A stretch of DNA of 25,480 nucleotides from a virus: positions 1 to 25,480 of the IMG/VR virus record IMGVR_UViG_3300021962_000589; one strand, given 5' to 3'. Position numbers and translations under genes: made by a program. This document shows, one piece after another, positions 760-15,146 of this stretch. The first letter of the stretch is position 1, and every line of letters starts with the position of its first letter. The notes under the pieces are model-generated. The model was given only the letters and a program-made list of their open reading frames with translations, was not told the DNA's origin and searched no databases.

Positions 760-2187
760 TTGGAAGTCATTAAATACAAACCCCCAGGCGCTAACGCAGC
801 CAAGTTCCATGGATCCGATGCTTTCGTTAGAGGGCTCATGGGACCGGTGGGTTCCGGGAAGTCTTCTTCATGTTGCGTGGAAATCGTAGCTAGAGCACTT
901 CGCCAGAAACCATCATCTGACGGCATCCGCCGTAGCCGTTGGTTAATCATTCGTAATACATATCCAGAGCTTAAGTCTACAACGATTAAGACCTGGGAAA
1001 CCTGGTTTCCATCAAACGTGGCGCCCATCAAATGGGATACGCCCATTACCTCGACTATGAAGATCGCTGATATTGGCGACGGTACGAGCATGGAACTCGA
1101 GGTGATGTTCATGGCGCTTGACCGTCCGACTGAGACAGGCAAGTTGCGTTCGTTGGAATTGACAGGAGCATGGATTAATGAAGCGTCAGAAATTGGTAAA
1201 GAAATCTTCGATATGGTCACGCAGCGTGTTGGCCGTTTCCCTAGTAAGTTGCAGGGTGGTCCATCCTGGTGCGGAATCATTTTGGATACCAACCCTTGCG
1301 ATGACGATCATTGGTATTACAAGCTAGCTGAAGAAGAGTGCCCGCCTGAGTGGGAGTTCTTCCGTCAACCAGGCGGTCTGTTTAAGGAGGGTGAGACATA
1401 TCAACCCAACCCTGACGCAGAAAACATCTTTAACCTACCTGGCGGATACCGCTATTATCTACAACAAGTCCCTTCTAAGCAAGAGGACTGGATTAACGTT
1501 TTCCTACTAGGCAACTATGGCTCAACTAAAGATGGAAAACCGGTATATCCAGAATATAACGACAAGGTTCACTGCCTGCCCAAGAACGTTGAAGCGGAGC
1601 GTGGACTACCTATTGTTCTCGGTTGGGACTTTGGTCTTACGCCTGCTTGTGTCGTCATGCAAGTCACGGCGAGAGGCAAAGTAATCATCCTCGATGAGGT
1701 GATCTCAGAGGACATGGGTATCCGGCAGTTTGCCAACGATGCCGTTAAACCTCTGTTAAACAACAAGTACCAAGGCTTCACAGTCTTCTCCGCAGGTGAC
1801 CCAGCTGGAAACATCAGGGCGCAAACGGATGAACGTACTTGCTTACAAGAATTACTAGAAGCCGGTATCTACACAGAGCCAGCTTCAACCAACGACTTTA
1901 TCCCTAGACGTGAGTCTGTCGCATTCTTCCTGACCAGGATGAGTGATGGCGAACCAGCGTTCTCGATCAACCCACGGTGCACAAACATCCGTAAGGGTCT
2001 GGCTGGTCGTTACAAGTATGAGCGCCTGAAGACTTCAGGCAATGCTCGCTACAAAGATAGACCCCTCAAGGACGGTTACTCACACATCCAGGATGCGTTG
2101 CAGTATGCGTGCTTAAAGGTGCGAAGCGGCTTAACTCCCTCAAGGGCTAGGCATGTAAACAAGAAATCGGCGAAGGGGTGGACTTAG
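760..2187 (+). CDS. terL: Terminase large subunit (ATPase-nuclease)
   Basis: 475 residues, normal for TerL. It pumps DNA into the prohead through the portal and cuts it at start and end. Seen: a Walker A loop GPVGSGKS at residues 28-35; a Walker B/catalytic segment TGAWINEASE at 135-144; and a C-terminal RNase H-like nuclease with its acidic positions at D290 (GWDFG), D347 (GDPAG) and D445 (HIQDALQY). All motor and nuclease residues look intact. The start is TTG at 760, directly after the stop of the small subunit; the first in-frame ATG lies inside the Walker A region (codon 27), so TTG is the only sensible start. Coupled, inefficient initiation would keep TerL low relative to its neighbour. 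The 3' end meets the inverted homing endonuclease gene tail to tail with a few bases of overlap. Confidence 0.96.
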   Translation: MEVIKYKPPGANAAKFHGSDAFVRGLMGPVGSGKSSSCCVEIVARALRQKPSSDGIRRSRWLIIRNTYPELKSTTIKTWETWFPSNVAPIKWDTPITSTMKIADIGDGTSMELEVMFMALDRPTETGKLRSLELTGAWINEASEIGKEIFDMVTQRVGRFPSKLQGGPSWCGIILDTNPCDDDHWYYKLAEEECPPEWEFFRQPGGLFKEGETYQPNPDAENIFNLPGGYRYYLQQVPSKQEDWINVFLLGNYGSTKDGKPVYPEYNDKVHCLPKNVEAERGLPIVLGWDFGLTPACVVMQVTARGKVIILDEVISEDMGIRQFANDAVKPLLNNKYQGFTVFSAGDPAGNIRAQTDERTCLQELLEAGIYTEPASTNDFIPRRESVAFFLTRMSDGEPAFSINPRCTNIRKGLAGRYKYERLKTSGNARYKDRPLKDGYSHIQDALQYACLKVRSGLTPSRARHVNKKSAKGWT

Positions 2188-2666
2188 CAGTTCCTGGCGT
2201 GATCGCCGTGATAGTGCTTGCGTGCCTCGCAAACTGCAACGTTCGCTTCTTCTGGAGTTTTGAACGTGCCCAAATGAATGTGTTTGCGGTGATGCATTAT
2301 GTAGCCATACCACTTGCCTGTGCGCTTGTTAAAGGACACTCCCTTAAAACCGGATGTGTTGTCCTTGCGCTTTTGGGCGTTGTAGTTGTTTTTGCACTTA
2401 TCGGTTTCCCGAAGGTTGTCGATCTTATTGTTGAGCTTGTTCCCATCAATATGATCAATGAACTTTGGTATGAGTCCGTGGTGCATTAGATATACAAGTT
2501 GGTGATTCCTGTATAGGCGCCCTTGCACCATTGTTTGCAGGTAGCCACGGGAAGCCAAAGTCCCGGCCTTAGTTCCTGCTGGTAGGTTATCGCAAGGCTT
2601 TACCCTCCAAAACAGGTTACCGTCTAAGTATTCAAATAGTTCTAGTGCAGTTTGTTGAGTAATCAT
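2184..2666 (-). CDS. HNH homing endonuclease with AP2 DNA-binding domain
   Basis: 160 residues from ATG 2666, on the strand opposite to all virion genes. HNH core at about residues 55-96: H55, then DHIDGNKLNNKIDNLR with H72, N80 and N84 in the expected order. AP2-like domain at about 106-157 (SGFKGVSFNKRTGKWYG … HLGTFKTPEEA), which usually gives DNA specificity in free-standing phage homing endonucleases. Both domains look complete, so the element is probably active. It sits exactly between terL and the portal gene and overlaps the terL stop by a few bases, as expected of an intergenic mobile gene. In-frame starts at 2675 and 2702 exist, but the -10 box at 2674-2679 overlaps the 2675 ATG, so 2666 is preferred. 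It contains no CTCGAG, unlike its surroundings. Confidence 0.93.
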   Translation of the reverse strand: MITQQTALELFEYLDGNLFWRVKPCDNLPAGTKAGTLASRGYLQTMVQGRLYRNHQLVYLMHHGLIPKFIDHIDGNKLNNKIDNLRETDKCKNNYNAQKRKDNTSGFKGVSFNKRTGKWYGYIMHHRKHIHLGTFKTPEEANVAVCEARKHYHGDHARNC

Positions 2667-2673
2667 ACTTAAC

Positions 2674-2702
2674 ATTATATATGCGCCTGGACTTAATTGC
2701 AA
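2674..2702 (-). promoter_or_regulatory. Sigma70-like promoter for the homing endonuclease
   Basis: On the minus strand TTGCAA (2702-2697) is followed after 17 nt by a perfect TATAAT (2679-2674). The predicted start, seven bases past the -10, falls at 2667-2666, the A of the ATG, so the message would be leaderless; no Shine-Dalgarno sequence precedes that ATG. The -35 box overlaps the AAGG ribosome binding site of the portal gene on the other strand. Prediction by consensus only. Confidence 0.5.
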
Positions 2703-7784: not shown

Positions 7785-8036
7785 ATGAAACTTTTAAAAC
7801 AAAAAGGATCCGGTGAGATATACGTTTGGTCAAAAGAATTGGCTGCACGTGCTGACATGGAAGATTTTGTGAAAGAGGTTCCTGTTGAGAATGTTCAAGT
7901 AGAGCAAGCTGACCAGGAAACTAAACCTGTTGAGGTAGTGAATGAAGAAGAAACCAGTGTGGGATCAACCCAACCCGAAGAAGCAAAGCCAGAAGCTAAG
8001 CCCAAAAGCAAAAGCACAAGCAAAGGCAAACGCTAA
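7785..8036 (+). CDS. Small acidic-then-basic unknown protein
   Basis: 83 residues. The first ~30 look folded (MKLLKQKGSGEIYVWSKELA), the middle (about 31-65) is a Glu/Val-rich disordered segment and the end is Lys/Ser-rich (KSKSTSKGKR). I do not recognise a family. Short proteins with this kind of N-terminus often follow capsid genes in phages and may be head accessory proteins. The last 95 bp also encode a second protein in the +1 frame (7942-8100), which probably explains the Lys/Glu/Pro/Ser composition of this tail. The ribosome binding site is weak and an ATG in another frame at 7781 is followed by a quick stop. Confidence 0.7.
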   Translation: MKLLKQKGSGEIYVWSKELAARADMEDFVKEVPVENVQVEQADQETKPVEVVNEEETSVGSTQPEEAKPEAKPKSKSTSKGKR

Positions 8037-8100
8037 GGCGGCAGGCAGACCCTACCCGAACCTGGTTGACAACATGAACGCAGCCAAGAAGGGCAAGTGA
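7942..8100 (+). CDS. 52-residue basic protein, nested out of frame
   Basis: ATG 7942, 52 codons, TGA 8098-8100. It is in the +1 frame relative to the gene at 7785-8036 and overlaps its last 95 bp. A good ribosome binding site (GAGG 7932-7935) lies six bases before the ATG, inside the other gene. The product starts MKKKPVWDQPNPKK, continues with a Lys/Ala-rich helix and ends AAGRPYPNLVDNMNAAKKGK. I remember short phage proteins with the same layout (PVWD near the start, then KAxAKAxAKxAGRPYPNLVDN) encoded after capsid genes, which supports real coding; their function is unknown to me. Its stop codon overlaps the next ATG (TGATG), giving an unbroken coupled chain. The basic helix could bind DNA or RNA in the head. 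Confidence 0.75.
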   Translation: MKKKPVWDQPNPKKQSQKLSPKAKAQAKANAKAAGRPYPNLVDNMNAAKKGK

Positions 8101-8411
8101 TGAAGGCATCAAACGTCAAGAAGGAAGGCGGCAAGCTCGTCTATCGAGGCGAAGAATTTGCTGGCTTCAATAAACCAAAGAAAGACACCAGCGGCGGCAA
8201 GACCAAGAAGGTAGTGCTAGCCAAGAAAGGTGATGAAGTGAAGTTGATTCGTTACGGTCACAAAGACTACGAAGACTTCACGCAACACAAGGACCCCGAG
8301 CGTCGCAAGAACTATCTCAAGCGCTCTGGTGGTATCAAAGATAAAAGCGGGAATCTGACCAAGGATGACCCATTCAGTGCCAACTACTGGGCACGTAAGG
8401 ATTTGTGGTAA
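8100..8411 (+). CDS. Basic conserved-looking phage protein, unknown function
   Basis: 103 residues from ATG 8100, whose A is the last base of the preceding TGA. An in-frame GTG at 8097 is one codon earlier and less likely. Strongly basic. The C-terminal half (KKGDEVKLIRYGHKDYEDFT … ERRKNYLKRSGGIKDK … DPFSANYWARKDLW) matches a small phage protein type I remember with a V-x-L-I/V-R-F/Y-G start and a terminal FSANYWARK-x-LW, without known role. Position among head and connector genes suggests a minor capsid or DNA-binding protein. The C-terminal AAGGA at 8398-8402 also serves as ribosome binding site for the next gene. Confidence 0.8.
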   Translation: MKASNVKKEGGKLVYRGEEFAGFNKPKKDTSGGKTKKVVLAKKGDEVKLIRYGHKDYEDFTQHKDPERRKNYLKRSGGIKDKSGNLTKDDPFSANYWARKDLW

Positions 8412-8737
8412 TGGCAACTTTCCAAAACGTAATCGATAGCGCACGAGTAGATCTGCAGGATGCTGACAAGGTTCGCTATTCAGACGCACAACTACTCGAG
8501 TATGCAAACGATGGCGTTCAGGAGGGCTTTCGTTATCGCCCCGACTTCCTACTAGGGCAGTTTGGCGCAGCGGCCACTATCTATGTAGCTGGTAGCACGG
8601 TGCCGTTTCCTACGCAGTATCAGATGCTATTGAAGCACTATGTCATTGGTCGTGCGGAGTTGCGTGACGATGAGTACTCGCAAGACGGCAGAGCCGCAGT
8701 GCTCCTTGGTCGCTTTGAAAAGGAGCTTAAGAAGTGA
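8411..8737 (+). CDS. Head-tail adaptor protein (DUF6682-like)
   Basis: 108 residues from ATG 8411, which overlaps the previous stop (TAATG) and has AAGGA eight bases upstream. The N-terminal helix with ARVDLQDADKVRYSDAQLL, followed by YANDGVQEGFRYRPDFL, is the hallmark of the phage adaptor family I know as DUF6682. These proteins form the first ring below the portal. The rest (…VPFPTQYQMLLKHYVIGRAE…, then a C-terminal helix FEKELKK) fits the helical bundle expected of an adaptor. It overlaps the next gene by four bases (GTGA). Confidence 0.78.
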   Translation: MATFQNVIDSARVDLQDADKVRYSDAQLLEYANDGVQEGFRYRPDFLLGQFGAAATIYVAGSTVPFPTQYQMLLKHYVIGRAELRDDEYSQDGRAAVLLGRFEKELKK

Positions 8738-9384
8738 GCACAGCACACACAGAATTCCTCGACTACGTATTGCCTCACGTGCCAGGTTGCACGCCTGAGA
8801 TGGCTCTACTCGAGATCAAGAACACAATCATTGATTTCTGCGAGAAGAGCTTGATTCTCCAGGTTGACCACGATCCAGTGAACGCTATTGCCGGAATCAT
8901 GGATTACGACCTCGAGCCCCCAAAAGATTACCTTGTCACCAAGATCATGAAGGTCTGGTACAAGGGTCAAGAACTAGATGGCGAATCTCCTGACGAGATT
9001 AAGACTCCATCTGTATACAACCAGAACTCTGGCTACGTTGTTAATCGTGGCGACCCCAGGTTGTATCTCCAAAAAGACGCACGTAGCTTCTCGGTATACC
9101 CAATACCAGTAGAGACAGCTGCTCGTTCCCTAACCTTGCGTGTGGCACTGAAACCCACACGATCAGCACAAACCATTGACGATCTTATTTTCGAAGAATA
9201 TGCGGAGATCATTGGTCACGGTGCAATCACACGCTTGGCCCTATCCCCTGGCAAACCCTATACCGAGCCAAGACTAGCTGCAGCCCGCAACGGACTGTAT
9301 GTAGCGGGCTTGAACGTCGCTCGTGATCGAGCACAGAAGGGCTATGTCAGACAAAGCAAACACGTGAAGATGAGGCGGATCTGA
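8734..9384 (+). CDS. Tail connector / tubular protein A-like structural protein
   Basis: 216 residues, starting with GTG 8734 and AGGAG at 8721-8725. Mixed alpha/beta: an N-terminal helical part (TEFLDYVLPHVPGCTPEMAL … IKNTIIDFCEKS), a central strand-rich part with a YLVTKIMKVWYKGQELDGES segment and a helical C-terminus rich in Arg. The order adaptor, then a ~200-residue connector with an early ‘CP…ALxxIR/K…FCE’ pattern, is common in podoviruses, where the second protein sits at the head-tail interface, comparable in place to T7 gp11. I am fairly sure it is a head-tail or tail structural protein and less sure of the exact homology. It is coupled to the next gene through TGATG. Confidence 0.65.
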   Translation: MSTAHTEFLDYVLPHVPGCTPEMALLEIKNTIIDFCEKSLILQVDHDPVNAIAGIMDYDLEPPKDYLVTKIMKVWYKGQELDGESPDEIKTPSVYNQNSGYVVNRGDPRLYLQKDARSFSVYPIPVETAARSLTLRVALKPTRSAQTIDDLIFEEYAEIIGHGAITRLALSPGKPYTEPRLAAARNGLYVAGLNVARDRAQKGYVRQSKHVKMRRI

Positions 9385-9716
9385 TGGCTGAAAAGATTAA
9401 ATTAGTACAAGGCGACACAAGACCTGCGCTCATTGTTACGTTAACCGATGAGAACACTGGTAACCCAATTACATTGACTGGTGCCTCGGTAAGTTTGTTT
9501 TTCCGTGCGGTTGGTGGTTCAAGCGTGCTATCGACCTTGCCCGGCACAGTAACTGATGCGGCAAATGGTGTAGTGGCTTTCTATTGGGCATCTGTTCCAA
9601 CATCTTTGAATGTTGATGCTGGTGACTATGAGGGCGAGGTTCAAATAACTTTCTCTGACGGACAAATCCAAACTGTTTACGACCTACTAAAATTCAAGGT
9701 TAGAGAGGACTTCTGA
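9384..9716 (+). CDS. BppU N-terminal-like domain protein (tail/baseplate component)
   Basis: 110 residues, predicted all-beta. The pattern QGDTRPALIVTLTDENTGNP, then LTGASVSLFFRAVGG … GVVAFYW … DAGDYEGEVQITFSDGQIQT … LLKFKVRED resembles the immunoglobulin-like N-terminal domain of BppU/DUF2479-type baseplate proteins, which in other phages link receptor-binding proteins to the tail. Here it is a stand-alone domain gene, a form I remember from many podoviruses. It starts within the stop of the connector gene and ends within the start of the 18-residue-repeat protein, so it may work with that protein as a fibre or tail-spike attachment piece. Confidence 0.6.
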   Translation: MAEKIKLVQGDTRPALIVTLTDENTGNPITLTGASVSLFFRAVGGSSVLSTLPGTVTDAANGVVAFYWASVPTSLNVDAGDYEGEVQITFSDGQIQTVYDLLKFKVREDF

Positions 9717-10798
9717 TGAACCAGATACGTGCAAGCGTATCGGTCCTCGACATCCGTGTTGATCAAGTCTATGTCATCCCATTGGCGGCTGTCAGTTACA
9801 TACTGCTGAGAGCTGATGCGGACCTGGATCAAACAGGTCGATACCCATACGTTAGTGACTTTATTGCGGTACTGGATGTACCAGCCTTTGCAGTAATCAA
9901 GGCGTTAGCAGACTCTGCAAGCTTCTCTGATCAAGCCTCGTTTGAGGTTGAGAAGTCGCTAGAGGATTCGTTCTCGTTATCGGATAACTTTGTCTTCTTG
10001 ATCACATTCATCCGTGATTTTGCAGACAGCTTTTCAACATCTGATGCCAAGGTCGTTTCATACGCCAAGGCAGTAGCTGAGTCTGTTGTTGCTTCCGAAT
10101 CGGTTGGCAAAGACATTTCCAAAGCATTGGCAGACATTGCCTTGATGCGAGATGACGCAGACTTGTTCGATAGCTTTGCGTACACATTCTCAAAGGCAAC
10201 GGCTGAGATAGTTACTGCATCAGATGCACAAACCGTATCTGTTGCGAAAGCGGCGTCTGAGTCCGTTACGGTTTCGGAGAGCTCCACCAAAGACATTGGC
10301 AAGGGAGCCTCTGATACCCAAGCGGTGACTGATGCACAGTCGTTGGGTTATGCAAAGGCTTCTGAAGACACGGCAACTGCGGCAGATGTCTTTAACCGAG
10401 TAGTTTCTTATGTGCGAGACACAGCTGATTCACTCGCTGCATCTGACACGTTCTCGAGCAGCTATCAAAAGCCAGCGTCCGACACAACAACCGTATCCGA
10501 CTCCTCGAGTCTAGACATCGGTAAGGGTGCGGTTGATACCCAATTAATAGCTGACAGTCTTTCATTCAACCTGGCTCTCGCTTATGCGGACACAGCCAGC
10601 TTGACTGAGGTTGTTTCTATAGCGGCAGACAAACCATTTGCCGATACATCTACCGTTGTTGATGACGATAGCTTTGAATTCAATAAAGGGCTGGCGGATA
10701 CAACCAGTGCTACCGACTCGTTCTCATACGTGAAGGTAAGCGTTGAGTCGTTCCTGTTCAACGTCAAGACTCTTAACAGTGCGGTAATGAACGGGTAA
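9716..10798 (+). CDS. 18-residue repeat protein (structural, tail-associated)
   Basis: 360 residues. After an N-terminal domain (1-62: ASVSVLDIRVDQVYVIPLAA…) come about 15 tandem repeats of mostly exactly 18 residues, with approximate pattern xxA-D/E-[ST]-x-x-x-[ST]-D-x-x-S-x-x-x-x-K. Clear units are GASDTQAVTDAQSLGYAK and PASDTTTVSDSSSLDIGK. A fixed 18-residue period rich in Asp/Ser/Thr with one Lys per unit suggests a repetitive rod, such as a beta-solenoid or extended fibre. Similar ‘ADS-x-x-x-SDSF’ repeat proteins occur among virion genes of many aquatic phages by memory, with no role I can name. Ribosome binding site GAGAGGA lies before ATG 9716, which overlaps the previous stop. Repeat number could vary between relatives by slippage. 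Confidence 0.8.
   Translation: MNQIRASVSVLDIRVDQVYVIPLAAVSYILLRADADLDQTGRYPYVSDFIAVLDVPAFAVIKALADSASFSDQASFEVEKSLEDSFSLSDNFVFLITFIRDFADSFSTSDAKVVSYAKAVAESVVASESVGKDISKALADIALMRDDADLFDSFAYTFSKATAEIVTASDAQTVSVAKAASESVTVSESSTKDIGKGASDTQAVTDAQSLGYAKASEDTATAADVFNRVVSYVRDTADSLAASDTFSSSYQKPASDTTTVSDSSSLDIGKGAVDTQLIADSLSFNLALAYADTASLTEVVSIAADKPFADTSTVVDDDSFEFNKGLADTTSATDSFSYVKVSVESFLFNVKTLNSAVMNG
9902..10750 (+). repeat. About fifteen degenerate 54-bp coding repeats
   Basis: Codons about 63-344 of the gene are built from ~54-bp units encoding the 18-residue pattern. DNA identity between units is modest, so the array is old or under amino-acid level selection. Two CTCGAG palindromes (10453 and 10504) fall in neighbouring units 51 bp apart. 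Confidence 0.75.
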
Positions 10799-11286: not shown

Positions 11287-12279
11287 ATGGCAGTTAAATT
11301 TTCTAATAACGCCTCGGCAACGCTGGCGTCTTCGATCAACAACTCAGTGACAACAATCGCTGTTACGTCTGGTCAGGGTGCGCTGTTTCCGTCTCTTGCT
11401 GCTGGCGAATTCTTCTTTGCGACCCTGGTTGATTCGAGTAACAACCTAGAAATCGTTAAGGTAACAGCTCGAGCTGCAGACTCCTTGACTGTGACACGTG
11501 CCCAAGATGGAACGTCAGCTCGTGCATACACAGCTGGTGACCGTCTTGAGTTGCGTCCTGTTGCTGCATCGTTCGATACGATGGCCCAGACAGATAAGGC
11601 TCAAACCTTCTCTGCTATTCAAACATTCAGTCAGACGATTGTCGGTAGCATCAACGGTAATGCAGCGACAGTAACCGACGGTGTTTACATAAGTGGCTCA
11701 CAAACAATCACGGGCGCCAAGACATTTAGTGGTGGCATCACATCTACTGGTGTGAGCTCATTAACCCTTAGATCTCCTGGTGACCTGGATACAACTGGCG
11801 CCATGTACGTGTCTTTCCAAGACTCTTCCACCGGATCAAGCGTAGAGCGTGGTTGGATTGGTTTTGGAGAGGCTAACGGCAACCTCGGAATGTCGAACGC
11901 CGTCTCCGGCAAACCAATTAAGTTTTACGTCTCTGGTGGCAACTACACCATGGACGCATCTGGAAACTTCACGGCTTCTGGCAACGTAACAGCCTACTCA
12001 GATGAGCGTCTCAAGAAAGATTGGGCGCCAGTTGGTGTTGACTTCGTAAGCAAGCTTGCACAAGTCAAGAGCGGCACCTACACACGCATCGACGGCGATC
12101 TTCGCCAGGCTGGTGTGTCAGCTCAAAGCCTACAAGAGGTTCTTCCTGAAACAGTTATGGAAGACATCGAAGGCACATTGTCTGTTGCTTACGGTAACGC
12201 CGCTTTAGTGTCAGCTGTTGAGTTAGCGAGAGAAGTTGTTGAACTTAAGAAGCGCTTAGAGGCATTGGAGGCTAAATAA
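11287..12279 (+). CDS. Tail fibre with C-terminal S74 intramolecular chaperone
   Basis: 330 residues. N-terminal domain (1-100) with TLASSINNSVTTIAVTSGQG … VTRAQDGTSARAYTAGDRLE, a module common at the start of phage fibres. Then a beta-rich shaft with TITGAKTFSGGI and a small head region (MYVSFQDSSTGSSVERGWIG). From about residue 230 to the end is the peptidase S74 chaperone domain: YSDERLKKD with Ser238-Asp239 at the usual self-cleavage site, then …AGVSAQSLQEVLPETV… and a C-terminal coiled coil (ELAREVVELKKRLEALEAK). The chaperone would trimerise the fibre and then cut itself off before Ser238, leaving ~237 residues in the virion. AGGAG at 11276-11280. The stop overlaps the start of the adhesin gene. 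Confidence 0.9.
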   Translation: MAVKFSNNASATLASSINNSVTTIAVTSGQGALFPSLAAGEFFFATLVDSSNNLEIVKVTARAADSLTVTRAQDGTSARAYTAGDRLELRPVAASFDTMAQTDKAQTFSAIQTFSQTIVGSINGNAATVTDGVYISGSQTITGAKTFSGGITSTGVSSLTLRSPGDLDTTGAMYVSFQDSSTGSSVERGWIGFGEANGNLGMSNAVSGKPIKFYVSGGNYTMDASGNFTASGNVTAYSDERLKKDWAPVGVDFVSKLAQVKSGTYTRIDGDLRQAGVSAQSLQEVLPETVMEDIEGTLSVAYGNAALVSAVELAREVVELKKRLEALEAK

Positions 12280-13169
12280 TGCCATTACCAAGTTCCGGAT
12301 CCATATCACTTAACGAAGTTAACGTAGAGCTTGGAGCGGCGGGCACGACAACTCGCTCTCTAAACGACTCTGCTGTTCGTACATTGTTTGGTGTAGCCAG
12401 CGGTGCGATCAGTATGAGTAACGGCTATGGCAAAGCAAACCGTGTCACAGTAAACATCACAATCTCGGCTAACACAGCCAACTACACGCTGAACACAGCG
12501 AAAGCAACTGGCTATTCTGCAGGTAGGACTGACGTCATCCTGACAATCAATAGCGGCGTAATCGTATCGTCTGGTTCCACAGGTACTGCAGCTTTCATCG
12601 TTGATACCTCATGGGCTGCTGGCGACACAGTTCGTATCAACAACAACGGAACAATCCTTGGTCGAGGTGGTAACGGTGGTGCTGGTGGATACGCTATACC
12701 TGGCGCTGGAACCGGTGGTGGATTAGCCCTATCGGTTCAACGTGCTACTTCTATCAATAATGCCAACCGTATATCAGGCGGCGGTGGTGGTGGTGGTGGC
12801 GGTTCTTACGGCCTTGCCAACGGCAATGATGCGTCTGGCGGCGGCGGTGGTGGCGGTATTGGAAATGGATCGAACGGCCTTGGCGGTTCTGGCGCAGGAC
12901 ACGGCACAGCTGGCACATTGACCGCAAATGGCACCGGCGGAGCTGGAGGCCAAAGATATGTCGCTGGCACTGAATCTTCCCCAGACTTTTATGTTTACGG
13001 TGGCAGTGGTGGCAATGGAGGTACTTACGGATCTGCCGGAGCAGCCGGTGGTGGCGGAACACACCCTTACACGGCACCCGGGAACGGTGGTGGCGCTGGA
13101 GCTGCGGTGTCTGGCAACGGCAACATCACATGGATCGCAACAGGTACACGTAACGGTGGTATAGCTTAA
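12279..13169 (+). CDS. Glycine-rich adhesin, probable receptor-binding protein
   Basis: 296 residues. The N-terminal ~60 (SSGSISLNEVNVELG … LNDSAVRTLFGV … ISMSNGYGK) form a module I remember from many phage receptor-binding proteins and probably anchor it to the fibre or tail. A beta-rich middle (about 60-127) follows. From about residue 128 to 290 the protein is dominated by glycine runs (GGNGGAGG, nine Gly around 167-175, seven around 187-193, GGSGGNGG) separated by short variable loops. This alternation is the pattern of a polyglycine-II helix sandwich as in T4-like gp38 adhesins, where the loops touch the receptor. TAATG coupling to the S74 fibre suggests the two act together. The next gene could be its assembly factor. 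Confidence 0.82.
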   Translation: MPLPSSGSISLNEVNVELGAAGTTTRSLNDSAVRTLFGVASGAISMSNGYGKANRVTVNITISANTANYTLNTAKATGYSAGRTDVILTINSGVIVSSGSTGTAAFIVDTSWAAGDTVRINNNGTILGRGGNGGAGGYAIPGAGTGGGLALSVQRATSINNANRISGGGGGGGGGSYGLANGNDASGGGGGGGIGNGSNGLGGSGAGHGTAGTLTANGTGGAGGQRYVAGTESSPDFYVYGGSGGNGGTYGSAGAAGGGGTHPYTAPGNGGGAGAAVSGNGNITWIATGTRNGGIA

Positions 13170-13183
13170 TATTAGGAGTAAAA

Positions 13184-13534
13184 ATGCAATACATTATTAG
13201 AAGCTTTGATACAGAGCACGGTCAAATCACAGTTGAATATGAGGGCAAGTGGGTTTATGCCGTCGATCTTCCGGTTGAGAATGGCGCCTTTCCAGTTGGG
13301 GAAAGACTTGAGGAAGTAATTCAGGGCATGGCGCCCACATGGTTGTCGGAAAGACAGGCTAGCCTAGCTAGTACACCAGAAAACACTGAAGCAATTCAAG
13401 CTTTAGTGCAGCCATTTCCTCCTCAAGATGCTATGCCATCGTTCTCGGATTCACTGAGCGAAACGGCAAATAATGCAGATATTGAATTTATCACACAAGT
13501 AGTTAATGAAGTTTTGGCATCAAAAGGTCTATAA
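13184..13534 (+). CDS. Unknown protein after the adhesin; possible fibre assembly factor
   Basis: 116 residues. The first ~55 look like a small beta fold (QYIIRSFDTEHGQITVEYEG … VYAVDLPVENGAFPVGERLE). The middle is a helix and linker (PTWLSERQASL…) and the end is acidic and helical (DIEFITQVVNEVLASKGL). Proteins of this size directly after adhesin genes are often fibre assembly chaperones, and the start resembles small proteins I have seen behind fibre genes, but I cannot name a family. It has its own AGGAG (13174-13178) and ends two bases before the PP-loop enzyme gene, so it heads a coupled three-gene set with the enzyme and the cupin. Confidence 0.75.
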   Translation: MQYIIRSFDTEHGQITVEYEGKWVYAVDLPVENGAFPVGERLEEVIQGMAPTWLSERQASLASTPENTEAIQALVQPFPPQDAMPSFSDSLSETANNADIEFITQVVNEVLASKGL

Positions 13535-13536
13535 CC

Positions 13537-14490
13537 ATGGAACAACAGTTCTACCATAACCCAGCCAAGATGATGCCGTACAACGAAGCCTTTGAGCAGG
13601 GTGGCCTATATGACCGCAATCAGATCGTTAATCCAACCAACGACATCAAGCTATTGACCCCCATTGGGGAGTTGGCGCAGGTAGGTAGCATCTATGACCT
13701 ATGTATGGAGAGAGCTAGTGCGCTTGCAAAACTCGTAGAAGGCACTGATAAGAAGTTGCATCTCTTCTGGTCGGGCGGCATAGATAGTACTGCTGTCTTA
13801 ATGAGCTTAAGGGAAGTAATGCCAGCTAATAAAATCGTGGTGCTACACACGCCTGAAAGTCTAGCGGAGTACCAGGGTTTCTTTGAACAGCATATTCAAG
13901 GCACATTCGAGACGTTTGAATTCTCGATGGGTACCGTGTGGAAGGCGGTTGAGTTTGCTTGCGCCAACGGCATCGTTGTTACTGGCGAAATTGGAGACCA
14001 GATCTACGGCAGCGTTCTATACCTGGATCGTGGCAAAGACTGGTTAATGCAGCCTTGGGAAAACTTTAACGCAGGGATTACTGCTGACGAGTCTTATCAT
14101 AGGTTTGTGCAAGCCTGCCCGCAAAAGATTACAACCACTGCCGAGTTTCTTTGGTGGGTTAACTACTCACTGAAGTACCAGCTAGTTCAATGCCGCATGT
14201 TGCTAGACAACACGGTTAGCGAGCTAAACAAGAACTTCTTTCACTTCTTCGATACCAAGGCATTTAACGACTATGCTGTATCGACACCAATGGAAGACAA
14301 GATGCCTGGCTACGTTATCGAGGCATACAAGAAGCCGCTAAGAGATGTGATCTACCAGCTTTCTAATGATGCTACCTACGCTTACACAAAGCCAAAAGTT
14401 AGATCGCTAGTTCCTGTGTACGGTCGCTTTACTCGTAACAAGGTTGCTTTTGCTATTGACACCAACTGGAAGCGCTACTACCTGGCCTAA
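13537..14490 (+). CDS. Asparagine-synthetase-like PP-loop ATPase without glutaminase domain
   Basis: 317 residues. Seen: pyrophosphate-loop motif SGGIDST at residues 79-85 after a hydrophobic strand (KLHLFW), and GEIGDQIYG at 150-158, which matches the GE-x-xDE-x-FGG loop of asparagine synthetase C-domains. A Lys pair at 265-266 (AYKKPLRDV) sits where that family has its catalytic Lys before LR. The known chemistry is activation of a carboxylate with ATP to an acyl-AMP, then attack by an amine or ammonia. The N-terminal glutamine-hydrolysing domain of AsnB is absent: there is no Cys2 and only ~78 residues precede the loop. Ammonia must therefore come free or from a partner, or the nucleophile is another amine. 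Substrate unknown. Two bases separate it from the previous gene and one base from the cupin gene, without a clear ribosome binding site, so translation is probably coupled. Confidence 0.8.
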   Translation: MEQQFYHNPAKMMPYNEAFEQGGLYDRNQIVNPTNDIKLLTPIGELAQVGSIYDLCMERASALAKLVEGTDKKLHLFWSGGIDSTAVLMSLREVMPANKIVVLHTPESLAEYQGFFEQHIQGTFETFEFSMGTVWKAVEFACANGIVVTGEIGDQIYGSVLYLDRGKDWLMQPWENFNAGITADESYHRFVQACPQKITTTAEFLWWVNYSLKYQLVQCRMLLDNTVSELNKNFFHFFDTKAFNDYAVSTPMEDKMPGYVIEAYKKPLRDVIYQLSNDATYAYTKPKVRSLVPVYGRFTRNKVAFAIDTNWKRYYLA

Positions 14491-14491
14491 T

Positions 14492-15088
14492 ATGAAAGTT
14501 ATTAACACAGTAGAGGTTCTTGATTCAACATCACAAGACTTGTACCAGTACCGATGCTTTGTTAAGTCACAGCCGGTACATACAGATAAACGATCAAGTT
14601 ACTGGTATGTGACTAACCGTGAGGTTGGTTGCTTTACTGGAGATGGGTCCGTCTTTAACGATTTTGAGGTATGCGTTGAGATCCTGGGTTACACCCCTGA
14701 GACTCGCACATCCTCTTACTCGAGGGGCACAGACCTACCGTATCTGAACGGCTGCAGTACCAAGCAATTGATACCGGCAACCAGGCAAGGTGACCCAACC
14801 TGGCAGATGCTGGTGATGTCACCCTGCACAACAGAGCAGAAGCACCACGTTCACTCTACCGCCAGGATCGTCTACGTAGCTGCTGGCAGCGGCAAATCAA
14901 TCGTGGGTATGCCTGAGTGCCAGGAGGAGTTCGATCTCAAGCCTGGGATGGTTCTGGTGCTTCCTAAGATGGAGCCGCATCACTTCACAGCTGGACGCAA
15001 TGGCCTGACTGTTATCCCGCTCCACATCTTCAGTAGTGGATCGAGTGAATTCAATCACCCGATGTTCAACGGCACGCACGTAGTTTAG
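14492..15088 (+). CDS. Cupin-domain protein paired with the PP-loop enzyme
   Basis: 198 residues from ATG 14492, one base after the previous stop. Open sequence in this frame reaches into that gene, but the upstream start at 14444 is not needed. C-terminal cupin barrel at about 105-190: motif 1 KHHVHSTARIVYVAAGSG with H119/H121, motif 2 PGMVLVLPKMEPHHFTAG with the third His. The Glu normally found four residues after the second His is Arg (HVHSTAR), so metal binding is by His only or altered. The N-terminal ~100 residues are beta-rich and not recognised; they may be a second, degenerate cupin. Cupins include isomerases, oxygenases and sugar- or amino-acid-binding proteins. With the adjacent ligase this one may bind or process the same small molecule or surface sugar. 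Terminator-like sequence follows. Confidence 0.72.
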   Translation: MKVINTVEVLDSTSQDLYQYRCFVKSQPVHTDKRSSYWYVTNREVGCFTGDGSVFNDFEVCVEILGYTPETRTSSYSRGTDLPYLNGCSTKQLIPATRQGDPTWQMLVMSPCTTEQKHHVHSTARIVYVAAGSGKSIVGMPECQEEFDLKPGMVLVLPKMEPHHFTAGRNGLTVIPLHIFSSGSSEFNHPMFNGTHVV

Positions 15089-15090
15089 TT

Positions 15091-15118
15091 GTAGGGTAAA
15101 CACCTACGTATTTTTATT
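15091..15118 (+). terminator. Probable intrinsic terminator after the cupin gene
   Basis: Stem GTAGG (15091-15095) / CCTAC (15103-15107) with a seven-base loop, followed by GTATTTTTATT. An alternative stem ACGTAG (15078-15083) / CTACGT (15104-15109) competes. The stem is short, so strength is uncertain; it marks the border between tail and lysis blocks. Confidence 0.5.
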
Positions 15119-15146
15119 GCACAAATTTATTAGTATCACTTATAAT
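15117..15146 (+). promoter_or_regulatory. Sigma70-like promoter for the lysis block
   Basis: TTGCAC at 15117-15122, 18-nt AT-rich spacer, perfect TATAAT at 15141-15146. The expected start is about 15153, only some five bases before the ATG at 15158, and no Shine-Dalgarno sequence is present, so the first message would be nearly leaderless. It follows a terminator-like hairpin directly, the usual layout of a new transcription unit. Confidence 0.6.

Follow-up and report, generated by a model that had tools for sequence, protein, structure and literature searches.

A putative two-enzyme decoration module travelling with a phage receptor-binding domain

Enzymes of the asparagine synthetase (AsnB) C-domain family (PF00733), the beta-lactam and carbapenam synthetases and TsnB9 have the PP-loop SGGxDS motif, the GExxD motif and the C-domain in common with the phage ligase described here, which differs from them in having neither an N-terminal glutaminase nor a remnant Ntn domain. 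The asparagine-synthetase-like enzymes of RiPP pathways, including lasso cyclases, TsrC and ScdTA (C-terminal amidation) and the nitrile synthetase PesC, are a precedent for adenylation of peptide carboxylates alongside oxidative enzymes, however, their substrates are short precursor peptides of bacterial clusters, and the portion of that paper drawn on here describes neither a cupin partner nor a virion target (PMC13060819). Gp38-type adhesin/chaperone pairs, such as gp38 of S16/PP01 (PMC12892980) and gp24/gp25 of cyanophage Pam3 (PMC9608196), have a small partner gene right after the gene of a glycine-rich adhesin, an arrangement shared by the locus studied here (12279-13534), but the excerpts of these two papers used for the comparison report no linked enzyme pair such as ours. 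In cyanophages, a cluster with a cupin-like enzyme has been proposed to serve secondary metabolite synthesis or capsule decoration (PMC7824862). No paper on a ligase-cupin pair or its context was found in the open-access literature searched; the parts are of known kinds, while their combination, spread and co-transfer with a receptor-binding domain are, as far as tested, new.

The window, meaning the whole 25.5-kb virus record that was analysed, carries an SU10-type portal match and a terminase, together with a weak capsid match, a weak holin match and a lysozyme match. An earlier note, made from the letters of this DNA, had read three genes in it (Table 1) as a single cassette placed between adhesin and lysis genes. 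The gaps of two bases (116-aa gene to ligase) and one base (ligase to cupin) are present as it described. A ribosome binding site of its own is clearly missing only for the cupin, which starts at the ATG at 14492 rather than at the TTG of the longer reading frame at 14444; the ligase, which the note had also taken to have none, is preceded by a partial AAAAGG (13522-13527), nine bases 5' of its ATG. The adhesin does adjoin the three genes, but the lysis genes begin 2.1 kb downstream and are separated from the cupin by DUF5856 and metallophosphoesterase genes. The module is on the adhesin's strand and closely packed behind it, which suggests that it is expressed late. A reading of the module as an anti-phage defence system was ruled out, as none of the PADLOC models matched.

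Table 1. Features of the locus and its surroundings (positions in the window)
Feature	Position	Strand	Evidence and remarks
HNH endonuclease with AP2 domain	2184-2702	-	HNH_3 1.8e-11; between terminase and portal genes
360-aa protein of diverged Asp/Ser/Ala-rich repeats	9716-10798		no Pfam match
Tail fibre with C-terminal S74 chaperone domain	11287-12279	+	Pfam Peptidase_S74 6.2e-9; phrog_25788 tail fiber 7.8e-55
Gp38-type glycine-rich tail-tip adhesin	12279-13169	+	Pfam GP38 7.8e-11; phrog_2056 'tail fiber protein; host specificity' 2.4e-15
116-aa gene	13184-13534	+	adhesin-partner gene, possibly a tail-fibre assembly chaperone (putative role)
PP-loop ligase, AsnB-C-domain-like, 317 aa	13537-14490	+	profile, fold, alignments
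Cupin, 198 aa	14492-15088	+	Pfam Cupin_2 5.4e-7; alignment; AF2 model
Terminator-like hairpin with T-rich tail	15090-15108	+	directly 3' of the cupin stop; weak; regional number of such sites not above chance
Sigma-70-like promoter match TGCACA-17-TATAAT	15118-15146	+	3' of the module; 10/12 matches; weak; such sites in the region below chance expectation
Holin-like gene	starts 17211
Lysozyme gene	starts 17621

The proposed cassette was retained only in part, with the ligase and cupin forming a two-enzyme module and the 116-aa gene assigned to the adhesin as its partner. All relatives found of this gene for which upstream sequence was available follow a glycine-rich adhesin, even at loci with neither enzyme, and a part of the gene in the chemistry was rejected on that account. 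Where the note had proposed a check for joint recurrence of the three genes beside adhesins in other phages, the enzyme pair recurs there at part of the loci and the 116-aa gene follows the adhesin regardless of the enzymes. Its position, and the example of the Pam3 gp24/gp25 pair (PMC9608196), suggest that it is possibly a Tfa-like adhesin chaperone. Searches of Pfam, PHROG and the PDB with the 116-aa protein gave no convincing match, known Tfa proteins and solved chaperones included.

Both PP-loop protein motifs picked out from the letters, SGGIDST (residues 79-85) and GEIGDQIYG (150-158), are present in the ligase, and alignments of its family show S79, G80, G81, D83, G150, D154, K265 and K285 to be invariant (24 invariant columns, with only 17 phage sequences aligned). 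The lysine pair originally placed at 265-266 needed correction, in that K265 is invariant and K266 varies, the second invariant lysine being K285; K265 and K285 were matched to AsnB lysines by eye, a correspondence that hhalign did not resolve. As a single sequence the ligase scored 17.4 bits (E 0.0038) against Pfam Asn_synthase, under the curated cut-off of 21, and a single-sequence PDB search with it returned no match. Comparison of the ligase family profile with an AsnB set (hhalign), however, gave a match at 96% (E 3.1e-9) with SGGxDS and GExxDE aligned, the ligase GEIGDQ (150-155) falling on the AsnB GEGSDE as the second motif, GExxD(E/Q). Since the single-sequence score stays below the cut-off and the profile-profile match is strong, the ligase is, on this comparison, a distant relative of Asn_synthase (PF00733) and not a filed Pfam member. 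The best Foldseek matches of its AF2 model (pLDDT 79, pTM 0.83) were asparagine, beta-lactam and carbapenam synthetases and the hydroxyamidotransferase TsnB9, at 10-15% identity; profile and structure comparison agree with the AsnB-C-domain class first assigned. The protein starts about 70 residues before the PP-loop, leaving no room for an Ntn domain, and neither sequence searches nor AF2/Foldseek detected an Ntn or N-terminal Cys glutaminase domain in the ligase, so that its description as glutaminase-less stands. Membership of this family predicts that the ligase adenylates a carboxylate, and it may go on to form an amide.

It is highly improbable that the ligase instead has one of the known PP-loop roles (tRNA thiolation, TilS, QueC, NAD/GMP synthesis or sulfur transfer) and that the cupin lies beside it by coincidence. 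Short local PP-loop matches to LarE and to GMP and NAD synthetases, and the MnmA annotation carried by ligase copies of Pseudomonas phage Cygsa01, would be in keeping with such a role, but the best fold and profile matches are asparagine and beta-lactam synthetases, GExxD motif included, and ligase and cupin co-occur far above chance (see below). The fold is of the AsnB-C type and not that of a tRNA or nucleotide PP-loop enzyme; with the motifs, it largely rules out tRNA, nucleotide and sulfur roles.

The cupin reached 29.7 bits with the Cupin_2 profile (cut-off 27.2) and was modelled by AF2 at pLDDT 88.7, with a bicupin-type fold by Foldseek. Its nearest folds in the Cupin superfamily are DUF861/ureidoglycine aminohydrolase, BacB, KduI and salicylate dioxygenase, which have a bicupin-like beta-barrel and the pattern of a His metal site in common with it, but the window cupin has Arg for the motif-1 Glu, a C-terminal signature of its own (EFNHPMFNGTH) and no close solved relative. 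Five histidines (H118, H119, H121, H163 and H164) are invariant in 37 phage and bacterial sequences, in line with the histidines first noted. The absence of the motif-1 Glu was also confirmed, the sequence reading HHxHSTxR with R125, invariant in 37 sequences, in its place, and a conserved Glu (E115) stands just before the His cluster. Not every cupin retains motif 1, HxH(x)3-4E. Altogether 35 residues do not vary in this alignment of 37 sequences, making the cupin more constrained than the ligase, and this conservation across phages and bacteria suggests that the cupin performs one fixed small-molecule chemistry.

Scanning viral sequences with the cupin as the only seed yielded 59 loci. All viral cupins found, including a few at loci that first came via the ligase scan, were clustered at 90% identity, and a ligase was present within 1.5 kb of 38 of the resulting 46 non-redundant cupins, in 30 cases within 150 bases. 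Among the eight cupins with no nearby ligase, five stand beside other PP-loop genes, mostly in a ParB/PAPS-reductase-like triad, one represents a jumbo-phage group in which ligase and cupin are unlinked within one genome (L042/L043), and for two no ligase was found. The 36 usable pairs comprise three gene arrangements (25 ligase-first, 8 cupin-first and 3 on opposite strands), thus adjacency survives rearrangement. Distance matrices of the two proteins are correlated (r 0.33, against a largest value of 0.18 in 5000 permutations), to which shared phage ancestry can contribute. The dedicated coupling of two proteins proposed in the earlier note is upheld by these counts and correlated distances, and the two genes stand next to each other in numerous phages that are not related. 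With this and the AsnB-C-type fold, neither of the two outcomes that the note had named as refuting its reading has come about. The pair is not obligatory, since each enzyme is also found without the other, as in Cygsa01, where ligases are present and the cupin is absent. The ligase-seeded scan turned up ligase relatives at no fewer than 444 viral loci, and a cupin lies near 31 of 75 ligase clusters (loci from the ligase scan onward, a set biased towards window-like ligases). We regard the enzyme classes and their linkage as well supported, and infer the substrate, reaction and target. At five loci (L021, L050, L051, L078 and L079) the cupin family occurs beside a ParB / PAPS-reductase-like / ParB set with another partner PP-loop protein (names assigned by eye), several of these loci also being near terminase genes.

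DNA similarity between the window and a second phage contig (L001, 8.6 kb, beginning at its adhesin) is restricted to 12448-15088, from within the adhesin gene, past the docking part, to the cupin stop codon. The receptor-binding part of the adhesin (12448-13169) is inside this block and the N-terminal docking part outside it, the adhesin N-termini of the two phages being unrelated. Within the block, protein identity is 73-77%, compared with 27-40% for the lysis genes, the only other proteins in common. This alignment points to transfer of module and receptor-binding domain between phages as a single unit. What follows the adhesin also varies between two further loci (L004 and L172) whose genes downstream of this slot are 75-90% identical, one holding ligase and cupin there and the other a 170-aa gene and a putative 2OG oxygenase (Pfam E 0.0024, below cut-off). 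A glycine-rich Gp38-like adhesin lies just 5' of the module in the window, L001, L004, L053 and others, and in Cygsa01 two ligase paralogues stand directly behind a glycine-rich adhesin. Overall, such an adhesin lies no more than 1.5 kb from the ligase at 16 of 79 ligase loci (null 6.4 +/- 2.0, maximum 13 in 400 draws); at 61 of the 79 a strict composition test found none within 3 kb, and some ligase-cupin pairs adjoin capsid, terminase or neck genes. The association of module and adhesin is real but partial, and the link of the enzyme pair to the adhesin, first suggested by gene order, is borne out by the shared block, the enrichment and the slot exchange.

We tentatively favour, at somewhat less than even probability, a role of ligase and cupin in decorating the virion, most likely its adhesin, as a two-enzyme module that would travel with the receptor-binding domain. 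The PP-loop ligase would adenylate a carboxylate with ATP, like asparagine, beta-lactam and peptide-amidating synthetases, and form an amide, drawing on ammonia or an amine as co-substrate, as the lack of a glutaminase domain suggests. The cupin, as a putative metal enzyme, would make or alter a small building block for activation or attachment. The likeliest target would be the glycine-rich adhesin of the tail tip, whose gene lies a short way 5' of the ligase, and the receptor-binding surface of the virion would then bear a non-standard chemical group. A broader reading, which we hold possible with still more reserve, is that receptor-binding domains and their own modification enzymes form mobile cassettes. 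Host recognition at the tail tip would then depend on chemical groups that are not genetically coded; an AsnB-like ligase and a cupin would install them, and oxygenase cassettes could take the place of this pair behind the adhesin. The adhesin C-termini, considered as the amidation target, gave no discrimination, as their pattern is the same in phages with and without the ligase (among the adhesin ends listed).

Two bacterial relatives of the cupin (L025 and L033) lie in what looks like a flagellin-glycan island, where genes for a DegT aminotransferase, an AMP-ligase, a PglD-like protein and a sulfotransferase adjoin flagellins. This setting, and the glycosyltransferase-looking neighbours at some phage loci, fit a serious rival to virion decoration, in which ligase and cupin act on a host envelope component such as a sugar acid, amidating or decorating it at a late stage of infection, and are linked to the adhesin via the same receptor. 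This might, for instance, release progeny from debris or prevent re-adsorption. Co-transfer with the receptor-binding domain fits equally. We consider this rather unlikely, as the cupin comes right after late structural genes on the same strand, which is late for receptor masking, the window module has no glycosyltransferase, and AsnB-type uronamide enzymes usually retain their glutaminase domain.

Other bacterial relatives of the cupin are found near an AMP-ligase/methyltransferase fusion (L027, Xenorhabdus), adjoining a TauD-aminotransferase protein (L029), near methyltransferase and AsnB-like genes (L030, L032 and L035) or near a methyltransferase and a ligase of the window-ligase family (L024); the ligase is absent from most of the cellular cupin genomes tested. 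Occurrence of the cellular cupin in clusters with AMP-ligase, dioxygenase, MaoC and ATP-grasp genes, as in Xenorhabdus, is what would be expected if ligase and cupin made a free metabolite (a cofactor, an inhibitor or a host-competition compound) and the fibre region merely accepted cargo. Tandem phage ligases (up to five per set), desaturase (Pfam), oxygenase-like or GNAT-like (by eye) neighbours of some phage ligases and the precedent of the cyanophage cluster with a cupin-like enzyme (PMC7824862) also agree with this second serious rival, but enrichment beside glycine-rich adhesins and a block boundary within the adhesin gene are unexpected for unlinked cargo, and we judge it unlikely.

A wide cellular distribution of the cupin was rejected, as one of 399 Pseudomonadota genomes carried it, that one being the centre genome itself. 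Among isolated-phage records, the cupin was found in none and the ligase in one.

If adhesins are modified by neighbouring enzymes, predictions of host range based on their sequence alone would overlook some of the chemistry of recognition, and adhesins purified after recombinant production could be without the native binding surface. The ligases, a large phage family that is apparently unannotated, would obtain a testable function for the first time, and the rare cupin family would be assigned a partner.

Several other loci of the ligase family were distinctive in their own right. A family of 205-245-aa proteins is encoded directly 5' of phage PP-loop ligases at L005, L006, L047, L109, L124, L134, L146, L153 and others, and a second family occupies the same position at L100, L126, L135 and L138; tandem partner-ligase duplications occur, and the representatives tested had no Pfam match. 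Tail-fibre islands at L082-L089 possess a fatty-acid-desaturase-like gene by the ligase, with GNAT-like/oxygenase-like neighbours and no cupin at the locus. The two Cygsa01 (L003) ligase paralogues (7941-8849 and 9134-10090) are annotated as the tRNA thiouridylase MnmA, which looks wrong on family membership. Enlarged ligases of 560-580 aa with an N-terminal extension were observed at L053-L074, L117 and L139, many of them behind one or two glycine-rich adhesins.
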